From Phymorhynchus buccinoides (lineage: Eukaryota; Mollusca; Gastropoda; Neogastropoda; Raphitomidae): a stretch of 64,000 nt of DNA. Below, in pieces: positions 2,838 to 60,090 of the stretch (positions within the stretch are counted from its first letter, which is position 1; each line of letters starts with the position of its first letter). Location of the stretch: the NCBI GenBank assembly GCA_017654935.2, contig CM065706.1:6203668-6267667 (forward strand). The letters run 5' to 3'. A program made the translations under genes and the position numbers. The notes beneath the pieces are model-generated. The model saw only the letters and a list, made by a program, of their open reading frames with translations, did not search any database and was not told where the DNA came from.

Positions 2838-2903
2838 ATTTTTGTGATGACTGCAGATGTGCATGAGGCCTTGGACACCACGTTTCCAGACAGCGTGCGT
2901 GTC
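2838..2903 (+). repeat. Partial duplicate of EMC2 exon 4 5' edge
   Basis: Repeats the acceptor and first roughly 55 nt of exon 4 (CTGCAG then ATGTGCATGAGGCC, ending GACAGCGTGCGTGTCAG) about 150 bp upstream of the real exon. It lacks one base relative to the exon (GCATGAGG versus GCATTGAGG), so its frame is shifted. The same copy is at 44227-44290 in the right arm. Confidence 0.8.
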
Positions 2904-2997
2904 AGTGTGTGTCTGTGCGTGTCATGCATGTTCTTGTATCTGTGTACACAGGTCTGTATCGAAGAATATCCCCCATGTTTTTTTGTGGTGAGTGCAG

Positions 2998-5900
2998 ATG
3001 TGCATTGAGGCCCTGGACTCCAAGTTCCCAGACAGCGTGCGTGTCAGGAGGCTGGAGGGCATGCTGCTAGAGGCGGAGGGATGGTACTTGATGCTTGCTG
3101 TTTTCTTTCTTTTTAATTTCTTCTCCCCCCCCCCCCCCCCCCCCCACAACCCAACTTAGTATTTACTTAACCCTTTCACTGCCAGCCATATTTCAGCCAA
3201 AAATGTCCATTAAATTTACCTGGATATAGAACAAAATCCATCTGCAGTATTGGGGATTCTTCTGTCACATAATAAAATAAGGTCTATTCTTACTTCCCAA
3301 AACTAAGACAATAGGGTCTTTGGATAATAGACCCCAATTTGATGCCTTTTAGTGACATAGGTGTTAAACCACTGTGGTGCTAAAATTTTGGCAGTGATAG
3401 GATTAAGGACAAAGACCTCATATCTTCGTTCTTTTCAAGTATTAAAAAAAGAAAGTAATTTTTTTTAAATGCAGGAATGAACTCGCAATGTCTTGAACAA
3501 CATATTCATCACAGCTAATAACTTGTGGTAAACGCAGTTAATTTAAAAAAAAAAAAAAAAAATTCCCCGAGGTTTCTGACTTTCACCAATATGTTGTTTG
3601 TTTGTTATAAATGTCAGCTTTAGAGTTTGTATATCTATGCTTTTAGATGCGAATGACCCAACTACTCCTTCATTGTTTCTTTCTGTCTGTCTCACAGCTA
3701 TGCCAAAGCGACGGAAATTTACCAGGAAATATCCGATAAGGATGACGCAAACATGGTAAGATGGATTGCGGTTTTCCTGCCCTGAAATTAAGCATTCAAG
3801 GTTCAATTCTAATTTTGTGTGCTGCCTGTATAGACTTCAAATTCAAAACAACAAACAGACAAGCCAAGTAAAGGTCAGGGTAATGATGGCAACCAGGCCT
3901 CGCGGCCTCTGAAGTGCCCTTTCAATTTAGTTTTTGTAGTATTGGGCTCAATCAGTCATACTATAGGGGTATCTCAATTCTGTCAATTTAGGGTCTTTGT
4001 CCAGGAGGTTTTTAAACTGGTTAAGGTTTGGTGCAAACCTGATTTGTAAAGCAGGCACCCCGATTTTCTTGTAGTTTTGCTGCATTTTAATGACTAAAGT
4101 AAAAAGGCAGGGCTCCCAGGGACCCGCATTTGAGGGTCTGTGAAGCTCTAAAATTCTAAAGGACCCTCTAAAAGAATGCAGGGGGTCCCAGGGACGCAGT
4201 AGAAAAAATTCTTTTTAGGATTCGCAATGCCACTGGGACCCTCTATCCCGCCTCTAGGACCCTCTATTCTGTAAGTGAAGGAGTGCCTGGGACCCCTTGT
4301 TTTGCGGGACGATTGGGAGCCCTGAAAGGCATTAGGGAAAAAAATGAAGAGAAATGGAGCTAAGTAACAGGACGAAAATCATCAGACAAAATACTAATTA
4401 CCTAAATTCTTTCAGCTACGGTACTTCTTTTTCTTTTCATAAATTGTGCTTTCGAAAAATTTATTATGGCATGCGATAAATGCTTTGTAACATGTTGCTG
4501 TGTATGTTTACGCATCCATCCTATGCTACTCTATCCACCCCCCCACACACACAAAGTTGTGTGTGAAAAGAGTAGTTTTAGCCTCATGACCTACTGGGGC
4601 CTTTACAAACTGGAAGTGGAACACAGCCTTTTTTTTTAATCTTTTTTTTTCTCCAGCCTGATCTTTAAGTAATTACTGGTCACAGTAGCTTTTCTCAGCT
4701 CCTTTCAGTTCATGCCTTTTGTTAACACTCGTCACCAGCATAAACCAATTTAAAGTGTTTCATCCATTAGGCTTACATTGTTTTATGGTGGCATGCCACT
4801 TGTAAGGTCTTTTCCTATCCCTAACCACAATCAATGATAAGAATATTTGCCTCTGTTAAAAGAAATAACTTGAAACAAATAACTCTCTGTGGAAAACTGA
4901 AAAGAGCCAGAATGAGGAGAATTAGTGTACTGTGTAGTTTCAGCAAAGACTGTACAGGGGAAGATAAACATCCGGTCTCTTTTCCCTATATGGGTAGTGA
5001 GGACAGAAACACTGGTTATGTCCCTTTGAAACGTGACACATTTTACACATCCATAGGCCAGTTGAATTCTCCGTTCAAGTTCCAGTCCGAGTTTTTGGAT
5101 AGCCTCCACTGTGAATAGTGTACACGTCCCCACTAACGATAACTCTTATCAGCCCGGTTCGCCGAGCTTTTAAGTAATCCATCTTACCCTTTTAGAATAT
5201 CTTTGGTTTCAGTCCGAAATAACTCGTGAGTTTTGCTTGTTTGTTTTGTATGTGTGTTGTTTTTTGTTTCTTTCTTTCATCTTTTAAATTCTATTGATTT
5301 TTGGGTGTTTTTTTGTACACAGTTTGCCAAGAAGAGGCTGGTGGCCATTCTGAAGTCGCAGAAAAAGATCCCCGAAGCCATCGACAAGTTGAACGACTAT
5401 CTGAAAAAGTGAGCCGTGTTGGAACATCCACCTTATTTGCCCTTGTGTTCATTGACTGAAGAAATAGTTTAACTCATTCAAGTCGTTCCGGCCATATATG
5501 TCCGGAATTGATAGACAACTGTCAATTTGATGCATTTGCTTCAAGGGAAGTAAATCTGTGCACACCATACCTTGATCACTTCTAAACTCGCTTCGCTCCC
5601 TTAGACCACAATTTTGCCTCTGACTTTGCTTTTATAGTGGTTTGTTGTGGGGAAACCCATCGGTGTAGAGAATGTTTCTACATAAAGTCTATATATAACA
5701 AAGTCTGATCTACCACTTCCCTAACCTGAAGTAAAAACCTGTAATCTTCTTTCATTTCTCCTTTTGTTTATACATGTATGTTTTGTTTGTGTGTATGGCT
5801 GAAGTGATTTGTGAGTTTTTTTAATAATTCAGAATCGTTGCAATGCGAATGAGTTAAACCTCATGCATTCGCATTTGCTACAAAAAAACCTTCTAGTGTT

Positions 5901-59236: not shown

Positions 59237-59681
59237 CCCTTTCGCTGCTATCATGTTTTGCTATAGGCTATGCTAAGGACATTTTCAGACACACACAAAA
59301 CCACACCAGTGGTTTTCTTTTGCTTATAGACACACACTCACACACACACACATACATACACACACTCACACACACACACAAATACACACACACACACACA
59401 CACACACTCACACACACACACCCCACACACACATGCATACACACACACACACATCTGGGCCACACACCCTCCTAATGAACGAACCACCAGAAGAAACCTA
59501 CAGCGGGGGGGGGGTAGGAGAGTTGTAAAGGGAGCCTATTAAACCTTAGAAAGAAGGATTTTCGCCAATGCAGTACGTAACAGAGAAAGCGTTGAATCAT
59601 GACGAACGACAGTCGTCAACAGAGCATTGCTCACAGCGGATTCTGTGACGAACAGCGTTCGTCAACAGCGCAGTGAAGAGG
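59237..59681. mobile_element. TTAA-flanked MITE containing a CA-rich tract
   Basis: Starts TTAA then CCCTTTCGCTGCTATC and ends CAGTGAAGAGG then TTAA (59682-59685). The centre is a CA-rich microsatellite (59329-59455). In the intron after DNALI1 exon 5. Confidence 0.6.
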
Positions 59682-59786
59682 TTAACCCTTCTTTTTCATT
59701 TAGAGGTACAGTGGATTCCTGATAACTCAAAAACACTGAATAACTGAAAAACACTGAAAAAACACTGAATCACTGTATGTAAAAAT

Positions 59787-60090
59787 GAGAAATAACACTG
59801 AAGAAATACAGGTTCTAAATCACACCAACATCAAGCTGAACACTTTTATTTTTTTGTTGCATTGTCACAGTTGAACACTGCCTGTTTGAGAGACGAAATA
59901 CGTGAGAGATAGAGTTTCTAAAACACACCAATATCCAAGTTGAGATTTGGGGGAATAATTTTTGCAATCGAGAATTTTCCCACTTGTTTAAAAAAAAAAA
60001 TTCATTTAAAGATTTTATAAAAATGGCAAAGAGCAGAAATACATTATTTAATATCCAGTTCCTAATAATATACCAACACCCAGCTTGTAA
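59787..60090 (+). repeat. Three decayed copies of DNALI1 exon 5 3' edge
   Basis: Segments at 59787-59839 (ACACTGAAGAAATACAGGTT, CACACCAACATCAAGCTGAA), 59905-59950 and 60040-60085 (ATATCCAGTTCCTAATAATA, CACCCAGCTTG) resemble the exon end CACTGAGGAGATCCAGTTCC through CACCCAGCTCAAG. They no longer have clear donors. Confidence 0.65.

Follow-up and report, generated by a model that had tools for sequence, protein, structure and literature searches.

The original paper on mirages is reportedly that of Canestro et al. in 2002. In the portions of the amphioxus literature available to us, mirages are minisatellite-like duplications of the 5′ or 3′ boundaries of exons, with units of 10-160 bp, and they are described in Adh3, the globin genes BflGb6 and BflGb9, troponin C and PGBD5. 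According to the same portions of these reports, AG or GT is kept in many, but not all, copies, and copy number varies between haplotypes. RT-PCR suggests that splicing in amphioxus is regular, Adh3 is somatically unstable, and the genomic mechanism is described as unclear. The accessible parts of studies on Conus introns (PMC3862624) and earthworm metallothionein (PMC12783039) report simple repeats, intron repeats and whole-exon duplications, and exon-edge arrays were not found in those parts. Among the matches listed in our literature search, which left most subscription journals outside, there were no mollusc reports of exon-edge arrays. Our analysis of the gastropod Phymorhynchus buccinoides indicates that the arrays described below are probably mirages, that is, local duplications of exon edges, some of which have grown into minisatellites, and that they occur in other gene families as well.

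The window, by which we mean the whole 64,000-nt stretch of DNA analyzed, covers 6203668-6267667 of contig C27 in an assembly of 2.12 Gb and 3962 contigs. Exons were placed by tblastn using human EMC2 and human DNALI1 as queries. EMC2 exons 2-10 and DNALI1 exons 1-6 were located and, when joined, gave open reading frames. The tblastn search with human EMC2 did not locate EMC2 exon 1. The EMC2 model shares 91% identity with Babylonia areolata, 89% with Nucella lapillus and 83% with Batillaria attramentaria. A second, odd EMC2-like protein of Batillaria showed no obvious built-in repeats when inspected by eye. EMC2 is present twice, in opposite orientations. Copy A lies on the plus strand with exons 4-10 inside the window (2998 to ~16491), and the inverted copy B lies on the minus strand with exons 9 to 2 (32311..48405). 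DNALI1 runs on the plus strand from 51444 to its last exon (exon 6) at ~67373, beyond the window, and a mirror copy of it lies to the left of the window. The EMC2-DNALI1 block forms an inverted duplication of more than 100 kb, which begins 30 kb or more to the left of the window and reaches position ~78,000, is centred near window position 23,500 and is 90-98% identical in its main stretches. Exons are 97.9-100% identical between the inverted copies. Dynein and kinesin genes (C9, C17, C1, C20, C15) are also often found in near-identical direct or inverted pairs.

The first-pass annotation had claimed that eight exon edges in EMC2 and DNALI1 are repeated into the adjacent intron, and each of these edges was checked by local alignment. 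All eight repeats were present. Matches crossing the junction scored 34-58 at EMC2 exons 4, 8 and 9 and at DNALI1 exons 3 and 4, and the junction match at EMC2 exon 2 was weaker, with a score of 26. The authentic exon 2, in copy B (48292-48405, minus strand), is accompanied by three degenerate copies of its 5′ edge on the same strand (48522..49355), two of which have the acceptor AG. These copies scored 46.6 (48597-48697), 24.0 (48522-48570) and 38.8 (49265-49355), whereas none of 200 shuffles scored above 19.8. The authentic EMC2 exons described next were placed in copy A, on the plus strand, by tblastn and the open gene model. Exon 4 (2998..3083) has one intronic copy of its 5′ edge at 2831..2905, consisting of 26 bp of intron and ~50 bp of exon; it lies 141 bp upstream of the authentic edge and scored 52.7 (shuffle maximum, 16.5). 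Exon 7 (9322..9463) is abutted by an array of ~48 units of 26 bp (8057..9321, plus strand), each of which carries the exon 7 acceptor AG but just 1-2 bp of exon; this array ends on the acceptor rather than repeating the exon. Exon 8 (11062..11172) is followed on the same strand by an array of its 3′ edge, donor and intron (11173..11951), with 127/110-bp units and six further copies. Some units of this array look like mini-exons, 51 nt long and in frame, that are bounded by AG and GT, and two units of the array have lost the donor by deletion. Four of the six intronic copies encode AVK at a site where the authentic exon encodes AIK. AVK is the state in all three snail EMC2 proteins compared, and the copies can therefore preserve older exon sequence. 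The array of intron, acceptor and 5′ edge that precedes exon 9 (14457..14561) occupies 12656..14456 on the plus strand and holds 11 further copies, with units of 112-124 bp from ~13211 and older copies from 12656.

The authentic DNALI1 exons were likewise placed on the plus strand by tblastn and an open gene model, and their copies lie on the same strand. Exon 3 (55952..56121) is preceded by four further copies of its 5′ edge (55298..55951), each consisting of ~77-81 bp of exon together with the acceptor and pyrimidine tract. Downstream of exon 4 (57007..57185) is an array of its 3′ edge and donor (57186..57790), beginning with 78-bp units and comprising six further copies and then a last piece made of exon only. 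Exon 5 (58996..59160) has three decayed copies of its 3′ edge (59788..60085), with scores of 21.7-23.1, above the highest score in 200 shuffles (19.2). In the alignments of these copies, no GT stands opposite the donor: one copy has TT and the other two stop short of it, though a GTAA lies one base beyond the third copy. Taken together, these alignments supported the first-pass reading in part: the repeats sit recurrently at exon-intron borders, the proposed unit lengths (26, 78, about 115 and about 150-190 bp) were right, and the figure of fifteen exons is correct if DNALI1 exon 6, outside the window, is counted. The units differ in length and sequence, each repeating its own exon edge, in agreement with the view that no single transposon is involved. 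The statement that no named mechanism was known has to be amended, since the pattern already carries the name of mirages in amphioxus, where the mechanism is called unclear too. Slippage and R-loop or splice-linked breakage, which the first-pass annotation had suggested, are at most candidate ways of seeding the arrays.

Repeats of other kinds are also present in the window. A dispersed element starting (TA)CAGTGGAACCTCCCTTATAAG occurs at 48284 (minus strand), at 12866 and at a locus outside the window (L041); it lies a few bases from the donors of EMC2 exon 2 (copy B) and of a dynein exon. A run of C of ~103 nt, with one or two interruptions, occupies 10441-10543. An EMC2 intron contains telomere-like sequence, with imperfect CTAACC repeats facing GGGTTA repeats (10699-10761 and 10826-10868). 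A dispersed repeat of ~200-250 bp is found at 10038-10289, 58350-58541 and 61118-61359, its copies being 88-93% identical.

All eight exon-edge arrays were found in both inverted copies, which are copies within one assembly and not alleles. Unit numbers differ between copies A and B at EMC2 exon 7 (48 and 25; copy B array at 35510-36201), exon 8 (6 and 3; 34252-34587) and exon 9 (11 and 5; 32549-32928). The remaining five arrays, those of DNALI1 included, have equal unit numbers in both copies at the thresholds used. Since the arrays are common to the two inverted copies, an arrangement absent from the first-pass annotation, they were seeded once, before the inverted duplication, and some were resized later.

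Whether junctions within the window are duplicated more often than expected depends on the null that is chosen. Counted by position, 6 of 25 junctions scored at least 25, as compared with 15.1% of 1144 random positions in 114 kb, and no clear positional excess emerges, so much of the introns being made up of the arrays. Of the deep-intron positions in the two window genes, 16.4% lie in duplicates, array tails included. The donor of DNALI1 exon 1 gave no junction match, its site being set 3 bp off in that test. Counted by events with a period of up to 300 bp, six span a junction where ~1.5 are expected (1.53, summed by hand from the listed events; P=0.005). When long-spaced pairs are included, the same six stand against an expectation of 3.7 (3.69; P=0.17). 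As the window was picked for its pattern, an independent sample was needed, and it is this sample of exons that is decisive.

The sample consisted of 32 exons, 20 of dynein heavy chain (PF12774) and 12 of myosin (PF00063), with flanks of 450 or 400 bp per side. Exons were taken in E-value order from profile searches that returned 128 hits for PF12774 and 73 for PF00063, the first 12 of the latter being used. For PF12774, three unplaced contigs (C3867, C3379, C3767) were left out, as were three hits in near-duplicate genes (C9:7104839, C9:7105781, C9:6997459) and one possibly fused hit (C20:11386346). Hit tables already showing partial re-hits were inspected before the sample was chosen, and the omitted hit C9:7104839 itself has a re-hit. 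Random 10-kb stretches served as the control, 20 in number, of which 4 consisted almost entirely of N and were left out. The automatic test flagged 10/40 dynein and 9/24 myosin junctions, and two of these flags were rejected. The flag at the L041 donor is due to the dispersed element containing CAGTGGAACCTCCCTTATAAG that is also present in the window, and for the acceptor of L056 the test had picked an incorrect site, the real one only abutting an array. Without these two, and before any site was shifted, 17/64 junctions were positive (P=3e-5), which is a modest excess over the 15.1% of positions in the introns of the window’s own genes (P=0.012). Three acceptors (L035, L043, L056) were shifted on inspection and two turned positive. 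The L053 donor fell within N and was dropped, the L032 donor was recognized on visual inspection and by means of a longer probe and was set as spanning by hand, and the L047 donor, where a piece of exon is copied without the splice site, was excluded from the count.

The final count placed 20 of 63 testable junctions in a local duplicate (95% interval, 21-45%), as compared with 220 of 2485 random positions (8.9%; P=3e-7). By the first-pass annotation’s own criterion, junction overlap at chance level would speak against it; in this sample of other genes, the overlap was above chance. The 20 spanned junctions are 10 donors and 10 acceptors, with periods from 45 to 214 bp, and L045 and L046 are paralogues with one mirage in common. 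None of the 32 sampled exons has a duplicated centre. At all 20 spanned junctions, the copies lie on the intron side. Direction was also judged by eye in 535 profile hits from five families, with three ambiguous exons and some overlapping neighbor hits left out of the count. All 37 partial copies judged, at 19 exons, obey one edge rule: copies upstream contain the 5′ part of the exon, and copies downstream contain its 3′ part. Among them are eight partial copies after one dynein exon (C31) and four after a myosin exon (C29).

Based on these observations, we propose that a segment of ~45-200 bp, the size of the observed products, is duplicated locally, possibly by slippage, template switching or unequal exchange, and that later exchange may build arrays. 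Events inside an exon would be lost because they damage the protein, while events at an edge leave a complete authentic exon with the extra material on the intron side, as observed at the sampled junctions; the role of selection here is presumed. Most copies carry AG or GT and are probably unused, because in genes with long introns the spliceosome favors the sites at the shortest distance across an exon, and the authentic site lies nearer than any intronic copy. This follows a rule given in the accessible part of PMC9225289, by which proximity across the exon decides between competing splice sites when introns are large. Arrays then grow, shrink and decay, as the two inverted copies show. Seeding is probably denser around exons, since junctions are hit above random positions in the sample. 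The duplications are recurrent and, in the sample, enriched, and tolerance combined with exon-centred seeding is the likely explanation.

The strongest competitor of this explanation is tolerance alone, in which duplication is uniform in a minisatellite-rich genome, junctions are not preferred and edge events merely survive. The excess would then come from easier detection beside conserved exons and from duplication-rich gene regions. We regard this as unlikely, although it deserves serious weight: the introns of the window genes are full of repeats away from junctions, and the event count that includes long-spaced pairs gave no excess. Against it, 20 of 33 duplicate families in the sample span a junction where 12.4 are expected under uniform seeding (P=0.003), a comparison in which L032 was set as spanning by hand, L041 was excluded and so was most of the extension of L036, a locus fetched longer, up to the neighboring exon. 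The 13 families that span no junction have a density of 0.48 per kb of flank, close to that of random sequence (0.31 per kb; 38 families in 123,182 bases), and most of the excess therefore sits at junctions. Old copies of a junction are recognized more readily than intron-intron copies, as their exon side is conserved. The excess persists among recent copies too, being smaller at an identity of at least 0.9 (12/63 junctions versus 6.1% of random positions; P=4e-4). At the sampled loci, duplicates cover 27-30% of the outermost 60 bp of the exon. On the intron side, coverage is 22-30% over the initial 60-80 bp, reaches as much as 40% at a distance of 160-180 bp and amounts to 13-20% farther out than 340 bp. 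Random pieces of similar length have 5-10% coverage with a mild drop toward their ends, so that the fall with distance is just partly an edge effect. These data suggest targeted seeding at exon edges, and transcription, base composition and chromatin are candidate causes of the denser seeding.

It is very improbable that selection maintains the arrays, whether for regulating splicing or as a stock of alternative exons. AG or GT is kept in 41 of 44 junction-spanning copies (counted by hand), and the EMC2 exon 8 units that look like mini-exons would fit such a role. This retention, however, is about what overall identity gives and therefore provides no evidence of selection; moreover, unit numbers are unequal between the inverted copies, the DNALI1 exon 5 copies have decayed and two EMC2 exon 8 units have lost their donor. 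Mis-assembly is scarcely credible as the source of the arrays, since their units are often non-identical, they occur in two diverged inverted copies, the pattern recurs in unrelated genes on many contigs, and re-sequencing, according to the part of the report available, upheld similar repeats in lancelet PGBD5.

Returning to tolerance with exon-centred seeding, we can speculate on a wider role. Tentatively, the exon edge may be a duplication hotspot, with about a third of junctions self-copied above background, and arrays may build up in long-intron lineages that use exon definition, such as gastropods and amphioxus, where silent copies could feed longer introns, new exons and new introns. This suggests a general route of change in long-intron genomes, in which splice sites and exon pieces are multiplied beside real exons without obvious harm, and it offers a testable link between duplication, splice-site choice under exon definition, the lengthening of introns and the origin of exons and introns. 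If exon definition keeps the copies silent, mirages are predicted to be numerous where introns are long and scarce where introns are short and spliced by intron definition. The arrays are also a warning for annotation, as gene predictors may call the copies exons, which is described for lancelet PGBD5 in the portion of that report available.

How do the snail arrays compare with known systems? Ordinary intronic minisatellites resemble them in their variable unit number and are present in the window and in the random stretches, but they lack an exon edge or splice site. The AGGT model of intron gain, as presented for potato RdRp in the available part of PMC4974935, likewise involves a local tandem duplication that makes pairs of splice sites. 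In contrast to that model, the snail gene models keep one authentic exon, and they contain no new intron within the coding sequence of EMC2 or DNALI1. Amphioxus mirages are closer. In both animals, the repeat unit spans the exon-intron boundary (in the snail, at 7 of the 8 window edges and at the sampled junctions counted above), 5′ and 3′ boundaries are hit, unit length varies by gene, and copy number is unstable, in the snail between the inverted copies. Judged from the genomic sequence, the structural features of a mirage are present in the snail; the likeness is one of genomic structure, regular splicing and somatic instability being features reported from amphioxus. The mirages described previously, in the parts of the literature examined, concern few genes of lancelets. 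Here, by contrast, the host is a mollusc, the genes include EMC2, DNALI1, dynein heavy chains and myosins as well as, by profile hits, kinesin and chaperonin, and the rate was measured with a control. The novelty lies in the lineage, in the range of gene families involved and in the rate that was measured.
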